Below, piece after piece: positions 37,807-63,685 of a DNA stretch of 64,000 nucleotides. Origin of the DNA: Bacteroidales bacterium. GTDB taxonomy: Bacteria; Bacteroidota; Bacteroidia; Bacteroidales; ML635J-15. A program made the translations under genes and the position numbers. The DNA lies in NCBI GenBank assembly GCA_003249955.1, contig QKHS01000015.1, positions 62,001 to 126,000 on the forward strand, written 5' to 3'. The notes beneath the pieces were generated by a model. The model ran no database searches, was not told the DNA's origin, and saw only the letters and a list, made by a program, of their open reading frames with translations. Within the stretch, counting starts at the first letter, position 1; the number at the start of each line of letters is the position of its first letter.

Positions 37807-37878
37807 AGCCACCCACGGGATTTGAACCCGCGACCTGCTGTTTACGAAACAGCTGCTCTACCGCTGAGCTAAGGTGGC
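37807..37878 (-). tRNA. tRNA-Thr (anticodon CGU)
   Basis: On the minus strand the acceptor stem GCCACCT pairs with GGGTGGC (one G-T pair). The anticodon arm is GCTGT-TTCGTAA-ACAGC with anticodon CGU, and the T arm is GCGGG-TTCAAAT-CCCGT. CCA is not encoded. It reads ACG threonine codons. Confidence 0.95.
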
Positions 37879-52816: not shown

Positions 52817-54358
52817 ATGGGAACATTAACAATAATTATGATTGCGGCAGGAGCCTTTTTGGGCGGAGGAGTGATTTCGTACTTTGCATGGGATAAAGCT
52901 CTGGTGAAAAAGAAAAATACAATAATAAGCGAAGCTATAAGCGAAGCTGAAGTAACCAGAAAAGAAAAAGAATTACAGGCAAAAGAAAAATATCTTCAAT
53001 TAAAATCTGAACACGATAGGAATTTTAACGAAAAAAATCAAAAAATAGCGGCTGCTGAGACAAAATTACAACAACGCGAAGCTACCATTACTTCGAGAAT
53101 TGAAGAAACTCAAAGAATGAAAAAAGAACTTGAAGTAATTCGTGAGAACCTTGACAAACAATTGGAACGTGTCGAGAAAAAAAGTGAAGAACTGGAAAAA
53201 GCACACAGAGAACAGGTAGAAAAACTGGAATCTCTTTCGGGACTTTCGGCCGAAGAAGCAAAAAAGGAATTAATGGAATCTTTGCAGGAAAATGCAAAAT
53301 CAGAAGCAATAGGTTTGATTAATGAAATAATTGATGAAGCCAAGATGACTGCAAATAAAGAAGCTAAAAAGATTGTACTGGAAACAATCCAGCGTGTTGC
53401 TACAGAGACAGCCATTGAAAATGCAGTTACTGTTTTTCATATCGAAAGTGATGAACTTAAAGGTCGTATTATCGGTCGTGAAGGCCGTAATATCAGAGCT
53501 CTGGAAGCTGCTACCGGCGTTGAGATAGTAGTTGACGATACTCCTGAAGCTATTTTACTTTCTGCATTTGACCCGGTTCGCCGCGAAATAGCAAGATTAT
53601 CTCTCCATCAGTTGGTAACAGACGGAAGAATCCACCCTGCACGTATCGAAGAGGTGGTTAACAAAACAAAAAAACAAATCGAAGAAGAAATTATCGAAAT
53701 AGGTAAACGTACCACAATTGACCTGGGGGTTCATGGGTTACATCCTGAATTGATAAGAATGATAGGTAAAATGAAATACCGTTCATCTTACGGGCAAAAC
53801 CTGTTGCAACACTCACGCGAAGTAGCAAACCTTTGCGCTATTATGGCATCTGAATTAGGCCTGAATCCTAAAATCGCAAAACGTGCCGGGTTACTCCACG
53901 ATATTGGTAAAGTTGCAGACGAGGAACCGGAATTGCCACACGCAGTTTATGGTATGAAACTCGCTGAGAAATTCAAGGAAAAACCTGAAATATGTAATGC
54001 TATCGGTGCTCACCACGACGAAGTAGAAATGAGCAGTTTAATATCTCCTATTGTTCAGGTTTGTGATGCTATTTCCGGTGCAAGACCTGGTGCAAGACGC
54101 GAAATTGTAGAATCTTACATCAAACGTTTGAAAGACCTCGAAGCATTGGCAATGTCATATCCCGGCGTTCTGAAAACATATGCAATTCAGGCAGGCCGTG
54201 AGTTAAGAGTAATTGTAGGAAGCGAAAAAATAAGCGACTCAGATTCTGAAAAACTAAGTTTTGAAATTGCCAGACGTGTACAGGATGAAATGACATATCC
54301 GGGACAGGTAAAAATTACGGTAATCCGTGAAACACGTTCGGTGAATTATGCTAAATAA
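52817..54358 (+). CDS. rny: Ribonuclease Y
   Basis: A 513-residue membrane-anchored endoribonuclease starting mRNA decay. It has an N-terminal membrane helix (about 3-25), a long Glu/Lys coiled coil (about 35-170), a KH domain (about 205-270 with [21 protein letters not shown]) and an HD domain with LLHDIGK (His361, Asp362). Length matches the family. Its last base overlaps the first base of the epimerase gene (TAATG), coupling the two. Confidence 0.97.
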
Positions 54359-55347
54359 TGGATAGAGCGATTCTTACAAATAAAAAAGTTCTTGTTACCG
54401 GTGGTGCCGGATTTATCGGCTCTAACATTATTGAAAAGCTTATTGCTCAGAATAATTATGTAGTTTGCCTTGACAATCTGGCAACCGGAAAAATAAAAAA
54501 CTTAAAGCCGTTTCTGAATCTCCCTGATTTTAAATTTATTAACGGGGATATACGCGATTTAGAAACCTGTAAGGCAGCATGTGAGGGCATAGACATTGTT
54601 CTTCATCAGGCTGCTTTGGGATCTGTCCCCAGATCAATCAACGACCCGATTACTACAAATCAGGTAAATATTGACGGATTTGTAAACATGCTAACCGCAG
54701 CAAGAGACAATAAAGTTAAAAGATTTGTTTATGCTGCAAGTTCATCTACATACGGAGATTCTACTGAACTGCCAAAATATGAAGATAAAATCGGGAAACC
54801 ACTTTCTCCATATGCAATTACAAAATATGTAAATGAGCTTTATGCTAAAGTTTTCGGGGACCTTTACGGGATGGAGACTATAGGGCTGAGATATTTTAAC
54901 GTTTTTGGCAAAAATCAGGACCCTGACGGGGCTTACGCGGCAGTATTTCCCAAATTCATCAAAATGATGATAAAGCACGAAGCTCCTCTTATTCATGGTG
55001 ACGGGACACAATCACGGGATTTTACCTATATTGCAAATGTTATACAGGCAAACGAACTGGCAGCTACAACCACCAATCCGTCTGCAATAAATACTGTTTT
55101 CAATGTCGCTTTTGGAGAAAGCAACAGCTTGAACGATCTAACAAAAGAGCTTACTGAAGCTTTAAGCACATTTGATCCTGAAATAGCTAAAATAAAACCT
55201 GTTTATGGTCCTGTTCGCACAGGAGACATAAAAGACTCTCTTGCGTCTGTTGATAAAGCAAAAAAAATACTTGGTTACAATCCGCTGTACAACGTTCATC
55301 AGGGAATTAAACTTGCTGTCCGTTGGTATTATGAGAATCTGAAGTAA
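54358..55347 (+). CDS. UDP-N-acetylhexosamine 4-epimerase, WbpP/TviC type
   Basis: A 329-residue short-chain epimerase that makes UDP-GalNAc from UDP-GlcNAc for surface polysaccharide. Motifs: NAD-binding TGGAGFIGSN, LHQAALGSVPRS, catalytic SSSTYG and YAITK (Tyr-x3-Lys), LRYFNVFGKNQDPDGAYAAVFPKF. The latter stretches are diagnostic of the WbpP/TviC branch rather than plain GalE. It opens directly on the rny stop. Its 3' end overlaps the convergent ligase gene by 41 bases. Confidence 0.92.
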   Translation: MDRAILTNKKVLVTGGAGFIGSNIIEKLIAQNNYVVCLDNLATGKIKNLKPFLNLPDFKFINGDIRDLETCKAACEGIDIVLHQAALGSVPRSINDPITTNQVNIDGFVNMLTAARDNKVKRFVYAASSSTYGDSTELPKYEDKIGKPLSPYAITKYVNELYAKVFGDLYGMETIGLRYFNVFGKNQDPDGAYAAVFPKFIKMMIKHEAPLIHGDGTQSRDFTYIANVIQANELAATTTNPSAINTVFNVAFGESNSLNDLTKELTEALSTFDPEIAKIKPVYGPVRTGDIKDSLASVDKAKKILGYNPLYNVHQGIKLAVRWYYENLK

Positions 55348-56545
55348 AATTTGCCGAATTTTGTTTCAGCATATACATTCCGAATACTGCAAAATATGCC
55401 CTGATATCAATAAAAGAACTTGATTTCATTGAATTCAGTATCAGATAAAACAGAACAAACATACTTACATATTTGATTCCCTTGCCGTTTTTCCGGAACA
55501 CCTGAATCAGGAACAACACAAAAATTATAAAGCCTACAAAGCCTAATTCGACCAAAATTTCAAGAAAAATATTATGAGGATAGCTCCTGTGATCGTATCC
55601 TTTTTCCAGCAAGCCAAAGCTTCCTATTCCATGACCAAAGAAGAAATCATTCAGATTCGAGAATATTAACTGAACGGATAAATCAAACTGGTTTACCCTG
55701 ATGTTTACAGAATTTCCCATATTCCCGCCCGACTTTGCAGGAACCAGTAGGTTCAGCCTCATTAATGCCCGTTTGACCAGATATATTATCTCGTTGTCAA
55801 AAACCATAAAAACGACTGATGCAACTACAAAGAAGCCGAAAAAAGCAAGAAACACTTTATACATGTCCTTTTTTATTACTCCTCTGAAAATAAATTTAAT
55901 AAGCTGCCATGCATAAAAAACGATTAATATCAAAATAACGAAAATAAGCGGCCCCCTCGCCCCCAGAACAAACATCAAGCTTATTGAGAATAAAATAAAG
56001 AATATGTTAACATATAAATTTTTAAATATTCTGTGATTTGAACATGCCAGTATCAAAGTATTGATTCCCAGCAATGTTGCACAAACAAGATATAATCCGC
56101 CTATAGAATCGTACAATTCCGATTTTACACCCGGGACATAATATCTTATAAATAAGAATATGAAAAATACTGATAATCCGGACACTGCAACGGTAATTAT
56201 TCTCGTGAACCTGTCTATTCTGAAATTTTTACTGAGCATAGGAAACAAAAATGCAATAAGGTTTGGTGCAAAATTCATGGTTTTAACATATGCATAATGC
56301 TCTGAAGGAGTGTAAATAAGGCTTACGGCCATCCACAAATAGAATAATATCAGAAAGACAAATGCGTATAAATTTACCCTTTCATGAACAAGTGAAATTT
56401 TTTCGTTACGATATTTTATCACCAGGCTAAACAAAAGAAATACTGCTGTTATTATGGTAAAATCAACAGGGAAATTTATCTGATAAAAATCAAATACACT
56501 TTTAAGCGGTCCGGACAGATAAAATAGTGCAAAAATCAGTTCCAT
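55307..56545 (-). CDS. O-antigen ligase/polymerase-like membrane protein
   Basis: A 412-residue protein with about 10-12 membrane helices and a large periplasmic loop (about 255-325). The loop contains HGIGSFG and YDHRSYPHNIFLEILVELG, the RxxxHN...E-type signature of the Wzy/WaaL (Wzy_C) superfamily. It joins or polymerises undecaprenyl-linked glycans at the periplasmic face. It is the second gene of a minus-strand pair, 2 bases after the deacetylase gene, and overlaps the tail of the epimerase gene. Confidence 0.85.
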   Translation of the reverse strand: MELIFALFYLSGPLKSVFDFYQINFPVDFTIITAVFLLFSLVIKYRNEKISLVHERVNLYAFVFLILFYLWMAVSLIYTPSEHYAYVKTMNFAPNLIAFLFPMLSKNFRIDRFTRIITVAVSGLSVFFIFLFIRYYVPGVKSELYDSIGGLYLVCATLLGINTLILACSNHRIFKNLYVNIFFILFSISLMFVLGARGPLIFVILILIVFYAWQLIKFIFRGVIKKDMYKVFLAFFGFFVVASVVFMVFDNEIIYLVKRALMRLNLLVPAKSGGNMGNSVNIRVNQFDLSVQLIFSNLNDFFFGHGIGSFGLLEKGYDHRSYPHNIFLEILVELGFVGFIIFVLFLIQVFRKNGKGIKYVSMFVLFYLILNSMKSSSFIDIRAYFAVFGMYMLKQNSANFTSDSHNTNGQQV

Positions 56546-56547
56546 GA

Positions 56548-57885
56548 TTAAATGCTTTCTGTTATTTTTTTATAAACTTCATTCCAGCCTTGCCATTCGT
56601 TTACAGACAAATTGCTGTTATGCCACAATAATACAAAATCTCCGTTATATTTTTTTGTTATTTCAGCCATTTCCAAAGCCATAGAAACCGAATTTTCTTT
56701 AGTTCCGGCACATCTGCGTAAAGCTGTATCCATAACAATAAGAGGCCTCTCACGTAAATTCAGTTTCTCGCGGGTAACGACATTAAATACCGGATATGAA
56801 AAACAAATTCCGCTTCTGAAGCCGATATTTTCATAAAACCCTATGCTGCTGTCCGTTTTAAGACTACAATCATCCCAATCCTGCCAGCTTTGCGGATTTT
56901 TAAACCTCAGATAATGCTGACGGCCTTCTTCAATATTATCCGAATACTTTTCCATCCGTTTTTTTTCTGACTCAAGTTGTTTTTTGTTACAGTAAGAAGA
57001 ATATGAAGGATGAATTCCTACAATATGATTCCTTGTTTTTATTCTTTCAATAGCTTTGAGAGCAGGTTCAGATCTGATATCAAAGCGCACATCTTCTTCT
57101 CCCGGCAGTCCTGGAATAAAATAGAACCTTGATTTTACGCCTTTACGATCCGAAATATCCATCAGATAATCAAAAGTATCATACACGTCTGGCTGTCCTT
57201 TAAATCTTATCCTGTAACAATCTTTCAATGTGCCGAAAAAAGTTTTTACACTTCTTCGCTTTATAATGTCTCCGGCCAAAGCTTTTACAATACCGGAAAT
57301 TTTATTGTATCTGGCAATGTCATCCACATCATGGGTTAAGAAAACCTGATATTTCCTTTGCACTCCGTTACAGGATATCCCCGATTTATTTAACAACAAT
57401 ACCAGAAAATCAATATATTCGTTAACTACCGGCCTTAAATGTATTGCATTTTTAACAGAAAGATTTTCCGTTTCAATAAATCTTCCGTGTGTATCCTCTT
57501 TACTTACGGCAATTTCTTCCCATCTGGTAAGCATAAAAAACGCTCCGGCAAACAAATCATTGTCAAGTTGTAAGAATTCATCTTCTGATTTTAATCCTTT
57601 TTCGCCAAATAATACCGGCAGCTTAAATACATCAAGAGCGGGATAATCAGCAAATACTACAGATTCCGGGATAAGATCCGCATCTTTGTAATACGGATAG
57701 TCTTCCTTTAAATCAGAAAAAAAAGAATCTGCAATAATAAGTCTTGAGTTTGCTTCGACAATTCTATATGACTTTACATTATCAGCAATCAACTGATATT
57801 CGAGCCCCAGAACCTCTGAAAGAATGAAATCAAGAATATATTTCTTTTCTTTCACAAAGGAATTATGGATAAAAACTGAAATCAT
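56548..57885 (-). CDS. Polysaccharide deacetylase-family protein
   Basis: A 445-residue protein without clear signal peptide. The C-terminal half (about 190-445) is a NodB-type deacetylase fold with LTHDVDDI (first motif, Asp pair about 194-196) and HPSYSSY (second His motif). The N-terminal half (about 1-185) is the extra domain found in Bacteroidota relatives, with WEEIA. It probably removes N-acetyl groups from a surface glycan or its precursor. The start is set at the ATG 57885 because the -7 box TATTTTTG (57916-57923) overlaps the longer in-frame start at 57918. Confidence 0.85.
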   Translation of the reverse strand: MISVFIHNSFVKEKKYILDFILSEVLGLEYQLIADNVKSYRIVEANSRLIIADSFFSDLKEDYPYYKDADLIPESVVFADYPALDVFKLPVLFGEKGLKSEDEFLQLDNDLFAGAFFMLTRWEEIAVSKEDTHGRFIETENLSVKNAIHLRPVVNEYIDFLVLLLNKSGISCNGVQRKYQVFLTHDVDDIARYNKISGIVKALAGDIIKRRSVKTFFGTLKDCYRIRFKGQPDVYDTFDYLMDISDRKGVKSRFYFIPGLPGEEDVRFDIRSEPALKAIERIKTRNHIVGIHPSYSSYCNKKQLESEKKRMEKYSDNIEEGRQHYLRFKNPQSWQDWDDCSLKTDSSIGFYENIGFRSGICFSYPVFNVVTREKLNLRERPLIVMDTALRRCAGTKENSVSMALEMAEITKKYNGDFVLLWHNSNLSVNEWQGWNEVYKKITESI

Positions 57886-57915
57886 ATAACTAATTGCTGA
57901 CAAATAATTAAAGTA

Positions 57916-57923
57916 CAAAAATA
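57916..57923 (-). promoter_or_regulatory. -7 promoter box TATTTTTG for the deacetylase-ligase pair
   Basis: Minus-strand TAnnTTTG box 30 bases upstream of the chosen ATG at 57885. Confidence 0.55.
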
Positions 57924-58106: not shown

Positions 58107-59786
58107 ATGTCAGAACTTACTAAAAATATTAAACCTGTTTTTATCGGTGGAGCAATAGGAAACTGTGTTCATGTTGCCGGGGTATATGATTTTTTGCGCA
58201 TTGCAGAAAGCATGGGATTTTCGACGGTATTTCTCGGAGCTGCCGTTGAACCGGATTTATTTATTAAGAAAATCATTGAGACAAATGCCGGAGTAGTATG
58301 TGTAAGTTATCGTTTAACACCTGATGCTTTAAATTCTGTTCTCGATAAATTTTTTGCAGGCATTGCAAAAAACAATCTCAGCGGGCTGACTTTTTATTTC
58401 GGAGGAACTCCCAAAGCTATTGAAGTTGCAAAAAAATACCCGTTATTCAGTGAGTTCTTTGCAGGAGAAGAGAATATTAACAACACGATAAATCTACTAT
58501 CACAGTTTAGAGGCGAATCAAAAAAGATAGAAGGCAATTCTGCTTTTGAAGCCGGACCTGAACGTAAATCCATTTCGGATACAACCAGCGAAATTGCATA
58601 TCTGCCATTAATCAGACATCATTTTGGTTTACCATCGCTTCCTGATACAATAAAAGGAATAGAAGAAATTGCCGGATCGGGTCTGGTAGATGTAATCTCC
58701 ATAGCCACGGATCAGAATGCTCAGGAGTTTTTCTTCGATCCTGACAAGATGGATCACAATATGGACGGGACAGGTGGCGTACCTGTGAGAACCGAAGCTG
58801 ATATGGAAGCTTTGTTCAACGCATCCCAAAGAGGAAACTTCCCGAGATTAAGAGTTTATTCCGGCACAAAAAATTTGCTGCAATGGGCCGAGATGAGTGT
58901 AAGAACAATTGACAATGCCTGGGGAACAATTCCTTTATTCTGGTATTCTCAGCTTGACGGACGCTCAAAAAGACCTTTGAACGAGGCAATTGACGAGAAT
59001 AAAAAAGTAATGAAATGGTATGCGGACAGGGATATTCCTGTTGAAATAAACGACTCTCACCATTGGAGTTTAAGAGAATCGTCGGATGTAACAGCAGTTG
59101 TGGATTTTTATCTGTCTGCTTTAAATGCAAAAAAGCTTGGAGTAAAAAGATATATTGCCCAGATGATGTTTAACACGCCCAGATTAACAACTCCGAAAAT
59201 GGATCTGGCAAAAATGCTGGCGAAAGACCAGCTTATATCTGAGCTTAAAGATGAAAATTTTACTTACCTGAAACAGGTTCGTGCCGGATTAACACATTTC
59301 TCACTGGACATGAATGTTGCAAAAGGACAACTGGCGGCATCCACAATGCTTTCTCTTGCTCTTAAACCGGAGATTATTCATGTTGTTAGTTTTACAGAAG
59401 CTAACCATGCTGCAACCCCCAAAGATGTTATCGAAAGTTGCAGCATTGTAAAAGGAGTTCTTAAAAATACATGGAAAGGAATGCCGGATATGTGTCTTGA
59501 TCCTGATGTAATTAAAAGAAAAGATTATCTGGTTGCAGAGGCAAAAAAAATGATAGAAATTCTGACAAACACATATTCTGCAATATCTGATGATCCTCTT
59601 ACCGATTCTGTTTGTCTGGGGAAAATGGTTTATGACGGGTATCTTGATGCTCCTCAGTTACGTGGGAACCCGGCGGCATTGGGAAAAGTAAAAACCATGC
59701 CTGTAAACGGCGGATACGATATTGTTGATGATTCCGGTAAAGTTATCAGCCATGCAGAATACTTCAGCAAATACCTGAAAAAATAA
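58107..59786 (+). CDS. Cobalamin-binding-domain enzyme with unassigned catalytic domain
   Basis: A 559-residue cytosolic protein. Residues 1-130 are a B12-binding Rossmann domain whose spacing follows the DxHxxG-x41-SxL-x26-28-GG signature: HVAG (His22, Gly25), Ser67-Tyr-Arg-Leu70 and GG at 99-100. The Asp that normally pairs with the His is Cys20. Residues about 165-559 are a large alpha/beta domain with FWYSQLDGRS, DSHHWSLRES and FNTPRLTTPKMD, which I cannot assign; a B12-dependent mutase or aminomutase TIM barrel is the best guess. It leads an apparent operon with an opine-type dehydrogenase and an ATP-grasp ligase. Confidence 0.75.
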   Translation: MSELTKNIKPVFIGGAIGNCVHVAGVYDFLRIAESMGFSTVFLGAAVEPDLFIKKIIETNAGVVCVSYRLTPDALNSVLDKFFAGIAKNNLSGLTFYFGGTPKAIEVAKKYPLFSEFFAGEENINNTINLLSQFRGESKKIEGNSAFEAGPERKSISDTTSEIAYLPLIRHHFGLPSLPDTIKGIEEIAGSGLVDVISIATDQNAQEFFFDPDKMDHNMDGTGGVPVRTEADMEALFNASQRGNFPRLRVYSGTKNLLQWAEMSVRTIDNAWGTIPLFWYSQLDGRSKRPLNEAIDENKKVMKWYADRDIPVEINDSHHWSLRESSDVTAVVDFYLSALNAKKLGVKRYIAQMMFNTPRLTTPKMDLAKMLAKDQLISELKDENFTYLKQVRAGLTHFSLDMNVAKGQLAASTMLSLALKPEIIHVVSFTEANHAATPKDVIESCSIVKGVLKNTWKGMPDMCLDPDVIKRKDYLVAEAKKMIEILTNTYSAISDDPLTDSVCLGKMVYDGYLDAPQLRGNPAALGKVKTMPVNGGYDIVDDSGKVISHAEYFSKYLKK

Positions 59787-59833
59787 TTTCAGAAAGTTGT
59801 AACAGTAACAATTAATGTATTTACAAATCGAAA

Positions 59834-60928
59834 ATGAACAAAAAAATAACAATAATCGGTGGTGGAAATAACGGATTAACAATGGCTGCTCATCTTGCCA
59901 TGACAGGGCATGATGTGTGCCTGTGGAACCGTACAGCAAAGACTATTGAAAAAATATTACAAAGTTCTGAAATCAGCATTTCAGGAAAATTAAACGGCAT
60001 CGCGAAACTTTCAAAAGCTACAACTGACATAGAAGAAGCTGTAAAAGATGCCGGATATATCTTCGTTACTCAACCGGCACATACACACTGCGAATTAGCA
60101 ACCAAAATGGCTCCTTATATAAGCCCGGATTCAATCGTAGTTTTAAATCCGGGACGTACGTTCGGGGCACTTGAATTTTACAATACTCTTAAAAAATGTA
60201 ACTGTAAAAATATGCCGCTGGTTGCCGAAACCCAGACTATTATTTATACCTGCCGTAAATCCGGCGAAGATTCTGTAATGCTTCTCGCAATGAAAACCGG
60301 GACTTTATTATCCTGCATTAATCATCCCGACAATGAAACCGTGATAAAAATGCTACCTGAAATTTTACAGCAATTCTTCCACCCTGCCCATTCGATTATA
60401 GAAACTTCTATAGGGAATGTTGGGATGATTCTGCACTGTGCTCCGGTTTTATTAAATGCCGGCTGGATAGAAAACAAGAAAACTGAATTTCTATATTATT
60501 ATGATGGCATTACTCCGAGTATTGCAAATTTTCTTGAAAAATTAGACAAAGAAAGAGTTCTTGTTGCTTCTAAATTCGGCGTAAATGTTCCTTCTGCACA
60601 GCAATGGCTACAGGAAAGCTATCTGGTAGAGGGCGATGATCTGTATCAGTCATTGCAACAGGTTATATCATACAAAACTATTGATGCTCCAAATTCTCTG
60701 CATCACAGATATATTTACGAAGACGTGTGTACTGGCCTCGTTCCTCTGGAAGCTGTAGGAAAAGCTCTGGGAGTGAACATGAAAATAACCACACTGTTGA
60801 TTGATCTTGCAAACGAAATTATGAATGAAGACTTCCGGAAAACAGGACGGAATGCCGAAAATCTGGGCCTGACTGACGAAATTATTGACAAGCTCATTAA
60901 AAACCCTGTAGGATTCAGGTTTGTGTAA
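59834..60928 (+). CDS. Opine dehydrogenase-family protein
   Basis: A 364-residue NAD(P)-dependent enzyme. The N-terminal Rossmann fold shows IIGGGNNGLTMAAHLA (about 7-22), and the C-terminal helical domain carries SLHHRYIYEDVCTGLVP (about 293-309), the octopine/opine dehydrogenase hallmark with its catalytic His. The family reductively joins the amino group of an amino acid to a 2-oxo acid, giving a secondary amine dicarboxylate. It lies 47 bases after the B12-domain gene, so its amino substrate may be that enzyme's product. Substrates are not known. Confidence 0.85.
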   Translation: MNKKITIIGGGNNGLTMAAHLAMTGHDVCLWNRTAKTIEKILQSSEISISGKLNGIAKLSKATTDIEEAVKDAGYIFVTQPAHTHCELATKMAPYISPDSIVVLNPGRTFGALEFYNTLKKCNCKNMPLVAETQTIIYTCRKSGEDSVMLLAMKTGTLLSCINHPDNETVIKMLPEILQQFFHPAHSIIETSIGNVGMILHCAPVLLNAGWIENKKTEFLYYYDGITPSIANFLEKLDKERVLVASKFGVNVPSAQQWLQESYLVEGDDLYQSLQQVISYKTIDAPNSLHHRYIYEDVCTGLVPLEAVGKALGVNMKITTLLIDLANEIMNEDFRKTGRNAENLGLTDEIIDKLIKNPVGFRFV

Positions 60929-61006
60929 AGTTTAACCCCTTAAATATTCAGTAAACGTCAGTTTCAAAATCTCCTAATCTTTTATTTTGAATTTATCCAT
61001 TTTTCT

Positions 61007-61014
61007 TACCTTTG
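61007..61014 (+). promoter_or_regulatory. -7 promoter box TACCTTTG for the ATP-grasp gene
   Basis: TAnnTTTG box with TTTG about 17 bases upstream (60986-60989). It may give an internal promoter for the ligase and flippase genes. Confidence 0.5.
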
Positions 61015-61033
61015 TGCCTCTAAAACAGGTAAA

Positions 61034-62227
61034 GTGAAACTAGCAAAGCTATTGGAAAAAGATTATAACATCCCTGTGATTCTGGGTGGTGGTCCTAACG
61101 GATTAGGCCTTGCCCGCAGTCTGGGTGCAGAAGGAATTAATTCTGTATTGACAGATGTTAAGAAAAATTTCAGCTTCAGTTCAAAATATGTTGCCGGGCT
61201 TGAGTGTCCGCATCCCTCACACGAAGATGAGTTTATCGGGTTTCTTACAGATCTGGGCAAAAAGATGAAGAAAAAAGCTGTACTTTTTGTTACCAACGAT
61301 CACTGGATGATACCGGTAAGTAAAAATCAGTCCATTTTATCGGAATATTATCTTTTCACAATGTCGGAATGGAGCGTAATAGAATCCTGCACAGACAAAA
61401 GGAAGATGTACGGAATTGCTGAAAAATCAGGAATAAACTGTCCAAAAACTTTCTACCTCGACGACATTGCAGACATTAAAAATATATACGAAGAAATTCC
61501 TTATCCGTGTATCCTTAAACCGGTTATAACACTTGACTTTGCGGATAAATTAAAGTCAAAAGCCAGAGTATTTAATTTGCATAACCGGGAAGAACTTGAG
61601 AATCTTGTATCCCGGATAATAAATGCAGATTTAAGAAACCGGGAAATTGTAGTTCAGGAATATATCCCCGGCGGAATAGAAACTCTTTACACCATAACAA
61701 CATACTCAGACAAAAATGCTGATATTGTTGCATGGTCAACAGGACACAAACTGAGGCAACGCCCGCCGGATGCCGGCACCATCATTTCGGGTAGGGTTAT
61801 ACCGGAACCAAGACTTCTGGAACCGGCAACAAAACTGATAAAAAACTCGGGCTTTTTTGGAATTGCAAACACCGAGTTCAAATATGACAAACGTGACGAC
61901 ACGTACAAACTGATTGAAATAAACCCAAGGCCCGGGAAATGGAATTACTCGGTAATGGCCAGCGGAATAAATATGCCATACATGATTCTTAACGAATTGC
62001 TCGGTAAAAAACAAAATACTGTCGTCAGCAGTCCGAAAGAATTAATCTGGTTATGTTTTGTAGAGGATTTCTACAATTCTGTTCTTGGAGGCTTTAAAAG
62101 AAAAGGGTATCCTGAATTTCAGCTAAGCCCCGGAAAATACTGCAAGTCAATCAGAGGTAAGAAAGTCGATGCTATTTTCAATTTTAAAGACATTAAACCT
62201 GGTCTGAGTTATTTGCTTAATCCATAA
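61034..62227 (+). CDS. ATP-grasp carboxylate-amine ligase
   Basis: A 397-residue enzyme starting at GTG. The N-terminal pre-grasp domain has VILGGGPNGLGLARSL, similar to PurK/CarB-type starts. The ATP-grasp core (about 115-300) includes CTDKRKMYGIAEKSGI, YPCILKPV, VQEYIPGG and the magnesium-site sequence KLIEINPRPGKWN. Such ligases join a carboxylate to an amine with ATP hydrolysis; D-aspartate ligase and glycan amino-acyl ligases are relatives. Followed 6 bases later by the flippase, which ties it to glycan export. Substrates unknown. Confidence 0.85.
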   Translation: MKLAKLLEKDYNIPVILGGGPNGLGLARSLGAEGINSVLTDVKKNFSFSSKYVAGLECPHPSHEDEFIGFLTDLGKKMKKKAVLFVTNDHWMIPVSKNQSILSEYYLFTMSEWSVIESCTDKRKMYGIAEKSGINCPKTFYLDDIADIKNIYEEIPYPCILKPVITLDFADKLKSKARVFNLHNREELENLVSRIINADLRNREIVVQEYIPGGIETLYTITTYSDKNADIVAWSTGHKLRQRPPDAGTIISGRVIPEPRLLEPATKLIKNSGFFGIANTEFKYDKRDDTYKLIEINPRPGKWNYSVMASGINMPYMILNELLGKKQNTVVSSPKELIWLCFVEDFYNSVLGGFKRKGYPEFQLSPGKYCKSIRGKKVDAIFNFKDIKPGLSYLLNP

Positions 62228-62233
62228 TCTGAC

Positions 62234-63685
62234 ATGAGCGACAATATTAAACATAAAACTCTTTTTGCTCTTAAATGGGTAACTATTTTACAGGCAGTAA
62301 CAACTTTGGGACAGTTACTCATAAGATTTATTCTTGCAAATATCCTGTTCCCTGATGAAATCGGCCTTATTGCAATAGTGACGGTTATTACCGAATTGCT
62401 TGTAATGGCTGCCGATATGGGATTTAACGCCTCGGTAATACAACGAAAAACACTTGAAAGTACTCATATAAGCACTGCATTCTTTTTGAATATGGCGTTT
62501 GCGGCAGTGTTAACCACCCTGGTATTTTTCACGTCAGGGCCGGTAAGTGCTTTCTACGCTGATGTAAGACTGGAAGAGTTGCTGAAAATAATTTCGGTAA
62601 TAATTCTTATAAGGGCATCGGTATCTGTACAAATAGGCCTGCTTGACAGAGAACTAAATTTCAAAAAAATTGTAATAATTTCGTTAGTCGCTCTGGTAAT
62701 TAGTTCTGTAGTAAAAATAATACTTGCAAAAAACGGGTATGGAGCAAAAAGTATTGCTCTGGGAGATATTCTAAATCAAATTATTATTGCCGGATTCCTT
62801 TGGGTAACAACAAGCTGGAAACCAAAAATCAAAGAAATATCGATGAAATCTTTCCGCGAGCTGTTTTCGTTTGGCGGAAATGTAATGCTGGTTAACACTA
62901 TAAATCATTTAAGCAGCAAGGCCGACCTGATGTTTATCGGAAAACTTGTAAGCACGTTCGCTACCGGTCTGTTTTCTGTAGCAGCACTGGTTTCGGATAT
63001 GCTTGTGTCGATAATAAACAGCATTGTGCAGAGAGTGCTTTTCCCAAGTTTTTCAAGATTGCAGGATGATCCTGAAAGAATTCAGGTTGGTTATCTTCAG
63101 GCAACAAAATTTATCAGTTTAATCGGGATTCCGATTTGTGTAGGAATATTTTTCCTTGCAAACGAAATCGTTACTTTATTCTTACAGGAATCATATAAGC
63201 CGGCAATTATTTTAATTCAGATACTTTCATTCAGGGCAGTATTCAACTCAATGGGAGGTGTATTGTGGGGACAGGTTTTAAAAGCAAAAGGCAGATCAAG
63301 ACTTGTGTTGTTGCTTACAGTTGTTAAACTTGTTGCACTGTTTGTCTTTATAATGATAGGAGCTCAATTCGGCTTGATTGGAATTGCAATTTCCACAGTA
63401 GCATACGGAGGAGTTTTCCGGTTTGTATATCAGCATGTGATAAACAAAGTTATAGATATAAGCATGTTGAAATACATACAATGTTTAATGCCGGCATTGG
63501 TATCTGCCCTGATTATGGCCGGAGCCTTAGCTGCTCTCAGATACGGATTAAAATTCACAAATATACAAGGATACACAACAGTCGGTTTGGTTGTTGTTAC
63601 AGGAATTATAAGCTATTCGGCAGCATTTATAACTTTATTCAGCAAAGACTTCAAAGTAATGAAGTCTCTGATTTTTAAAAAATAA
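62234..63685 (+). CDS. Wzx-type lipid-linked oligosaccharide flippase
   Basis: A 483-residue membrane protein of the MATE/MVF superfamily, polysaccharide synthesis branch (PST/Wzx), with about 14 helices. Motifs include LRFILANILFPDEIGLIAIV-like starts and FSFGGNVMLVNTINHLSSKADLMFIGK in the middle. It should move an undecaprenyl-linked oligosaccharide across the inner membrane for the ligase/polymerase nearby. It starts 6 bases after the ATP-grasp gene. Confidence 0.9.
   Translation: MSDNIKHKTLFALKWVTILQAVTTLGQLLIRFILANILFPDEIGLIAIVTVITELLVMAADMGFNASVIQRKTLESTHISTAFFLNMAFAAVLTTLVFFTSGPVSAFYADVRLEELLKIISVIILIRASVSVQIGLLDRELNFKKIVIISLVALVISSVVKIILAKNGYGAKSIALGDILNQIIIAGFLWVTTSWKPKIKEISMKSFRELFSFGGNVMLVNTINHLSSKADLMFIGKLVSTFATGLFSVAALVSDMLVSIINSIVQRVLFPSFSRLQDDPERIQVGYLQATKFISLIGIPICVGIFFLANEIVTLFLQESYKPAIILIQILSFRAVFNSMGGVLWGQVLKAKGRSRLVLLLTVVKLVALFVFIMIGAQFGLIGIAISTVAYGGVFRFVYQHVINKVIDISMLKYIQCLMPALVSALIMAGALAALRYGLKFTNIQGYTTVGLVVVTGIISYSAAFITLFSKDFKVMKSLIFKK

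Follow-up and report, generated by a model that had tools for sequence, protein, structure and literature searches.

Within the window, i.e. the whole stretch of 64,000 nucleotides analysed here (contig QKHS01000015.1 of a Bacteroidales bacterium), three genes on the plus strand encode a putative mutase of the adenosylcobalamin (AdoCbl) type that belongs to a B12-dependent family linked to opine dehydrogenases (58107-59786; 559 amino acids), an opine dehydrogenase of the Octopine_DH family (OpDH; 59834-60928; 364 amino acids) and an ATP-grasp ligase (61034-62227; 397 amino acids), the first two starting with ATG and the third with GTG. We consider it fairly probable that the core pair of B12 protein and OpDH is devoted to the synthesis of a compatible solute and that the pair found in the window works for a cluster of surface-polysaccharide genes. 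The osmolyte reading is favoured because a riboswitch for cyclic di-AMP (c-di-AMP) lies upstream of the operon in 18 of 89 loci and because genes for MscS, trehalose synthesis and chloride channels are found among the neighbours in a few loci.

In the proposed pathway OpDH would reductively couple an amino acid to a 2-oxo acid, most likely pyruvate, to yield an N-(1-carboxyalkyl) amino acid, i.e. an opine. Either this opine or the amino acid from which it is made would have its carbon skeleton rearranged by the B12 protein, acting as radical mutase, to give an isomer that is metabolically inert. In an optional ATP-dependent step an AsnB-like enzyme, often one without the glutaminase cysteine, or an ATP-grasp enzyme may then cap a carboxylate as amide, so that an iminodiacid with a net charge of -1 would become a neutral zwitterion. 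The product would act as compatible solute in those relatives that carry the riboswitch, a role that we extend to most of the family, and the window's ATP-grasp ligase is likely to couple the acid to an amino group of the glycan repeat unit. We infer the substrates, the order of the steps, the product, its osmolyte role and the glycan linkage from the enzyme families and their surroundings, the solute role being suggested by the likeness to N-acetylglutaminylglutamine amide (NAGGN) and acetyl-beta-lysine.

The B12-OpDH pair and its ligase partners

The 91 loci compared here comprise the window itself, four second copies of other loci (L015, L016, L017 and L018) and the remainder, taken from sampled genomes and from a species-level genome collection, of which the best 80 of at least 565 stretches encoding relatives of the B12 protein were kept; the latter number stems from two search patterns, so that a single gene may count twice, and the choice skews the sample to close relatives. 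OpDH is encoded on the strand of the B12 gene in 89 of the 91 loci, adjoining it in 88 and lying 1.4 kb away in L092, where an AsnB-like gene is inserted; no OpDH is in view at L031 and L045, both of which are at contig ends. Without copies, the two genes are linked in 85 of 87 distinct loci. Where both open reading frames are complete (78 loci), they always share the strand, with a median gap of -1 nt and OpDH first in 73 cases, and the distance matrices of the two proteins are strongly correlated (Mantel r 0.81), a value reached by none of 1000 permutations. Since OpDH stands on the same strand beside the B12 gene in nearly all loci, the association exceeds chance.

The two genes also occur together or not at all in 395 genomes of the same phylum, five of which contain a full B12 match and exactly those five an OpDH at E<=1e-20. 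By our own arithmetic the probability of such matching occurrence by chance is about 1e-11, the B12 and OpDH samples being taken as one identical set; only the first three candidates per genome in the B12 search and the first five in the OpDH search were scored, i.e. a gene may have been missed. Two fragmentary matches, in G182 (E 2e-4, 141 amino acids, two stops) and G333 (E 6e-4, 99 amino acids), were set aside from the B12-positive count. Judged by their conservation as a unit, the B12 and OpDH genes probably belong to one pathway. The initial annotation had read the three genes as consecutive, on one strand and followed by a flippase gene, and had proposed an amino-acid/opine pathway that hinged on their co-occurrence elsewhere. 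Reading frames and Pfam matches bear out the arrangement, the genes are intact, all three families are confirmed, and the co-occurrence was found, the pair being linked in 89 of 91 loci and accompanied by an AsnB-like gene in 39 or an ATP-grasp gene in 14 of the 91.

The kept loci carry names from many bacterial phyla and from one archaeon; the archaeal-named contig with the pair, L104, also encodes a TFB-like protein, as judged by eye. L107 (genome G635) gave one more diverged match for the B12 protein, with 30% identity over part of the protein (E 1.7e-38).

The third gene is variable. Among the AsnB-like proteins the N-terminal glutaminase cysteine is absent in 25 of 37 distinct sequences, and the motif SGG[LI]DSS is kept in 38 of the 39 listed. 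The 16 Cys-less rows compared are closest to asparagine synthetase B (3e-73 vs 1e-26 for beta-lactam synthetase), which rules out a plain beta-lactam synthetase for them. An obligatory AsnB could likewise be ruled out, as 15 genomes without an adjacent AsnB gene yielded one close homologue elsewhere, five weaker AsnB-like matches and nine times none at E<=0.001. On a tree of 85 of the 87 distinct loci (the ORF caller missed the B12 gene of L042 and L083) the types of third gene are clustered, yet they have been exchanged several times, a count inflated by cut contigs, which are included in the label for loci with no third gene. In the clade of L051, L062, L078 and L095 a Ddl-like ATP-grasp is retained but unlinked in genomes G789 and G800.

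The B12 protein and the order of reactions

The OpDH of the window matches Pfam Octopine_DH (PF02317) with an E-value of 1e-43, and its closest relative in the PDB is N-(1-D-carboxylethyl)-L-norvaline dehydrogenase (CENDH; 1bg6, 5e-67; a match to 1bg6 is also reported at 2.4e-114), so that it may be called a CENDH-type enzyme. Residues H201, R292, E296 and D297 are invariant in 27 of 27 aligned sequences, and we take the His, Arg and Asp to be catalytic; given this conservation OpDH would form an opine.

The B12 protein is predicted to consist of a B12 domain (approximately residues 10-135), a linker and a barrel resembling that of the glutamate mutase subunit GlmE (approximately residues 165-559). 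Pfam places B12-binding (PF02310) on residues 13-102 with an E-value of 9e-5, under the gathering threshold, and gives for the catalytic half just a chance-level match to a DUF (E 0.23). The AlphaFold model (pLDDT 89) has as top Foldseek matches GlmE (6h9e_B, 1.6e-16, TM 0.63 by target length; 1cb7_B, 5.8e-16), followed by ornithine and lysine aminomutases and methylmalonyl-CoA mutase. The GlmE model of Pfam, PF06368, matches the OpDH-linked gene, as assigned by coordinate matching, in six of 20 genomes (G787, G789, G791, G796, G801 and G802) and probably in G803; in the six the E-values range from 1.4e-6 to 1.5e-4, five of them below the cut-off and one at 26.7 vs 26.6 bits. True GlmE genes were found separately in three of the 20 genomes, and in the window's own genome PF06368 has no match at E<=0.001. 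Profile-profile comparison (hhalign) with GlmE gives an E-value of 4.8e-5 and, for the catalytic part, 2.6e-5 in local and 4e-7 in global mode; with a less diverse alignment of 48 rows the match is weak (E 0.047). The catalytic half is, by these comparisons, a distant homologue of GlmE.

As MAFFT over the whole length misplaced the N-terminal half relative to GlmE, alignments of the catalytic domain were used. The substrate arginines of GlmE, R66, R100 and R149, correspond to H172, Q206 and Y251, each invariant in 48 of 48 sequences, and GlmE E330 corresponds to E431, also invariant in all 48. H22 and G25 of the B12 motif are equally conserved (48/48). Glutamate mutase proper was rejected, since all three substrate arginines are replaced. 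Taken together, fold and alignment indicate that the B12 protein is very probably an AdoCbl radical mutase, the substrate of which differs from that of glutamate mutase. At residues 20-25 (58164-58181 of the window) the motif reads CxHxxG in place of DxHxxG, and the Cys is present in 48 of 48 members of the window's group; the Asp of DxHxxG is found in the four aligned members of a diverged group from glycan clusters (see below).

It is possible, if doubtful, that the mutase acts first, i.e. that the reaction of the B12 enzyme is a glutamate-mutase-like isomerisation of an ordinary amino acid, the branched product of which OpDH subsequently couples to a 2-oxo acid. Glutamate mutase is indeed the nearest match in fold and profile, a MaoC protein matching mesaconyl-CoA hydratase is encoded near the pair in L022, and three modes of MAFFT place the invariant D284 opposite GlmE E171, although hhalign does not pair these residues. 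The loss of the three arginines makes free glutamate an unlikely substrate, and 73 of 78 operons have OpDH ahead of the B12 gene, a weak hint against this order.

A more far-reaching and somewhat unlikely version of the compatible-solute pathway would make the B12 protein the first radical "opine mutase", converting N-(1-carboxyethyl) into N-(2-carboxyethyl) amino acids, from which an AsnB-like enzyme that has lost the glutaminase cysteine, or an ATP-grasp enzyme, would form an amide or lactam. The product would represent a new class of c-di-AMP-controlled compatible solute and would serve as glycan acyl group as well. N-(1-carboxyethyl) amino acids are isosteric with 3-methylaspartate, one of the two sides of the glutamate mutase reaction, and N-(2-carboxyethyl) amino acids are the substrate type of beta-lactam synthetase.

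c-di-AMP riboswitches and osmotic neighbours

At the Rfam gathering threshold 41 sources, picked mainly from Bacillota, contain 13 matches to the c-di-AMP riboswitch (RF00379), all of them directly upstream of the OpDH gene, and no cobalamin or T-box element. A model (R1) built from 12 of the 13 and run over 89 loci (1.40 Mb; E<=0.5) gives 18 matches, every one upstream of the operon; 12 of these are the model's own rows and six lie outside them (L060, also found by Rfam, L102, L061, L057, L093 and L042). L057, L093 and L042 are named Armatimonadetes, and L061 groups with L093 on the tree. The element of L057 is located about 500 nt upstream, and that of L042, cut by the contig edge (E 0.0027), precedes genes in the order AsnB-OpDH-B12.

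In 12 whole genomes 20 matches to RF00379 were obtained, nine of which are at the pair according to coordinate matching. The match at the pair is the sole one of the genome in G792, G796, G798, G800 and G802, and the whole-genome search gave no match at the pair in G788, G793 and G797. The OpDH start of Thermoanaerobacter wiegelii is preceded, in this order, by a promoter-like site, the aptamer and a terminator-like hairpin (one found vs 0.3 expected); in L058 promoter-like sites at riboswitches occur at chance frequency (one found vs 1.4 expected). Directly upstream of riboswitch and operon, Thermoanaerobacter and relatives carry a gene for a YheO-like PAS_6/HTH_22 regulator (L058, 7961-8611).

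The genes behind the remaining 11 riboswitches were read, some of them with Pfam. One riboswitch of G788 precedes genes for a glycosyltransferase, a sucrose-phosphate phosphatase and a ClC channel, another precedes TrkA and KdpA. In Fervidicola (G789) the other riboswitch is followed by an ATP-grasp gene, the product of which shares 69% identity with the pair-adjacent ATP-grasp of Anaerosalibacter. One riboswitch of G797 precedes sensor and response-regulator-like genes, as judged by eye, and G805 has two more. In Formimonas (L168 and L169) riboswitches are found before sucrose-phosphate-phosphatase/ClC genes and before TrkA-KdpA genes. c-di-AMP is described as acting in osmolyte and potassium balance in an account of its functions (PMC5919688). 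Loci without a riboswitch match have genes for MscS (five loci), for the trehalose enzymes OtsA/OtsB (three) and for ClC (two) near the operon.

Polysaccharide setting, competing roles and known systems

In the window B12, OpDH, ATP-grasp and flippase genes are separated by 47, 105 and 6 nt. The ATP-grasp ligase matches ATPgrasp_Ter (PF15632) at 4e-10, and the next gene (62234-63685, plus strand; 483 amino acids, ATG start) encodes a Wzx/MOP-type flippase (Polysacc_synt_3, 8e-72). To the left, and divergent from the operon, are genes for a VimE-like protein (DUF7033; 56548-57918, minus strand), the score of which with the VimE model, 162 bits vs a cut-off of 440, is far under the threshold, and for a membrane protein resembling Wzy/O-antigen ligase (55307-56545, minus strand), followed by an NAD-dependent sugar epimerase family protein (54358-55347, plus strand). 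Beyond the flippase gene, to the right, an M28 peptidase, two glycosyltransferases, a hexapeptide-repeat protein, a PIG-L deacetylase and a DegT aminotransferase are encoded. The region is a surface-polysaccharide cluster. In L018, from a genome of the same genus, epimerase, Wzy-like, VimE-like, B12 and OpDH genes have the order found in the window, and the VimE-like gene is beside the pair in L017 as well. The B12 gene was found as a single copy in the window's genome, and the sole Rfam match in the window at the gathering threshold is a tRNA (37807-37878, minus strand).

A deeply diverged lineage (L019-L023) has glycan genes and an ATP-grasp beside the pair in five of five loci, L021 being judged by its homology to L020. 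The B12 proteins of L019, L020, L022 and L023 are 29-31% identical to that of the window, and the ATP-grasps of L020 and L021, near-copies of each other, are 39% identical to the window's. This distribution suggests that the pair is used in surface-polysaccharide clusters in two separate lineages, the window's included; whether glycan use would have arisen twice depends on the root of the tree. Beside the pair of L022 (15045-17240) there are a gene of the HpcH/CitE family, a second gene that clusters with HpcH/CitE and, between them, the gene of the MaoC protein (mesaconyl-CoA hydratase match, 3e-13). In the methylaspartate cycle, HpcH/CitE- and MaoC-type enzymes work downstream of glutamate mutase.

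The possible glycan decoration put forward in the initial annotation fits the window, with its flippase, Wzy-like, VimE-like, glycosyltransferase, DegT and PIG-L genes, and the glycan genes at L019-L023, but it is not supported as a general role: other loci look mostly unlike glycan clusters (by eye, uncounted), 18 of 89 have the riboswitch, and MscS, trehalose or chloride-channel genes are neighbours in a few. Conversely, as the core family looks osmotic, this host, too, might use the trio for osmolyte synthesis, its place next to the polysaccharide genes being incidental. We regard this as unlikely, given that the flippase gene starts 6 nt past the ATP-grasp gene, that epimerase, Wzy-like and VimE-like genes are retained beside the pair in L018 and that the diverged lineage has glycan genes and ATP-grasps throughout, two of the latter 39% identical to the window's.

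Several observations weigh against a compatible solute as the family's product. The window has no match to RF00379, i.e. it is connected to osmotic functions by its family only, and 71 of the 89 loci are without a match to R1. No third gene could be seen in 38 of 91 loci, of which some are on short contigs. The counts of osmotic neighbours come without a control and from few lineages, and four of the five MscS loci are near-syntenic. No close precedent is known for a pyridoxal-phosphate-independent 1,2-shift of a secondary amine. Moreover, wall hydrolases are encoded behind four riboswitches in G791 and G787 (two assigned by Pfam and two by eye), one riboswitch in G787 precedes a peptide ABC transporter (by eye), and a gene resembling D-Ala-D-Ala carboxypeptidase (by eye) is situated behind the operon on the opposite strand in L035, L050, L058, L060 and L097.

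The wall hydrolases and the carboxypeptidase-like gene, together with the Ddl-like or AsnB-like nature of some third genes, would fit a product destined for the cell wall, i.e. a peptidoglycan building block, an unusual amino acid or an amide, that is switched by c-di-AMP along with wall hydrolases. This is decidedly unlikely: no mur gene was noticed at the loci, for which no dedicated search was made, the pair is found on the archaeal-named contig and in glycan clusters, and further riboswitch targets are genes of the K+ and sucrose type. That the product is secreted, as opine or metallophore, or that opine formation serves fermentation as a sink for NADH, is highly improbable despite the many hosts that are anaerobe-like by name and the metallophore and invertebrate anaerobic enzymes among the wider OpDH families, since c-di-AMP would control the operon, a sink would need neither radical mutase nor amide ligase, and neighbour clustering revealed no transporter family recurring across lineages, an MFS-like gene following the pair in L046, L082 and L085.

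If the compatible-solute pathway is correct, an osmolyte can be made by a route that relies on B12 radicals, c-di-AMP biology gains a new branch, and an osmolyte pathway is also used to decorate surface glycans; the proposal offers a testable function for a B12-dependent family that has lacked one since 2009. In that year Zhang et al. predicted, from 11 bacteria (Clostridia, Lactobacillales, Chloroflexi and Thermotogae) and with no function assigned, a family with an N-terminal homologue of the B12 domain that always adjoins pfam02317 and in several cases has D-Ala:D-Ala ligase and asparagine synthase nearby (PMC2667541). The OpDH-linked family is very probably the same, as the window shows both the adjacency to pfam02317 and the N-terminal B12 domain given in that description. 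The remark in the initial annotation that no such pathway had been described is accordingly right for the pathway itself, but the neighbourhood of B12 protein, OpDH and D-Ala ligase or asparagine synthase had been predicted. Control by a riboswitch, homology to GlmE, the matching occurrence, AsnB without the cysteine and the forms in glycan clusters go beyond the 2009 account, as far as its description of the family extends (PMC2667541). The open-licence literature yielded no later study of the pair, and within these limits novelty may be claimed for the link to the riboswitch, the assignment to GlmE, the matching occurrence and the presence in glycan clusters.

Among characterised systems, glutamate mutase (GlmE/GlmS) has the best-matching fold, a colinear barrel, the equivalent of E431 in E330 and the same kind of B12 domain, which in the family described here is, however, fused at the N terminus and, in the window's group, carries CxHxxG, and the three substrate arginines are replaced. 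CENDH is homologous to the window's OpDH over the whole length, with His, Arg and Asp kept; it is not known to have a B12 partner. The pathways to NAGGN and N-epsilon-acetyl-beta-lysine likewise arrive at an inert neutral solute, by AsnB-type amidation or by a mutase plus capping, and employ neither an OpDH nor a B12 mutase. For the glycan branch the comparison is with Providencia alcalifaciens O35; its account, as far as it goes, names no B12 enzyme, and the O-antigen carries alanopine, i.e. an opine as acyl group on an amino sugar (PMC10609480).

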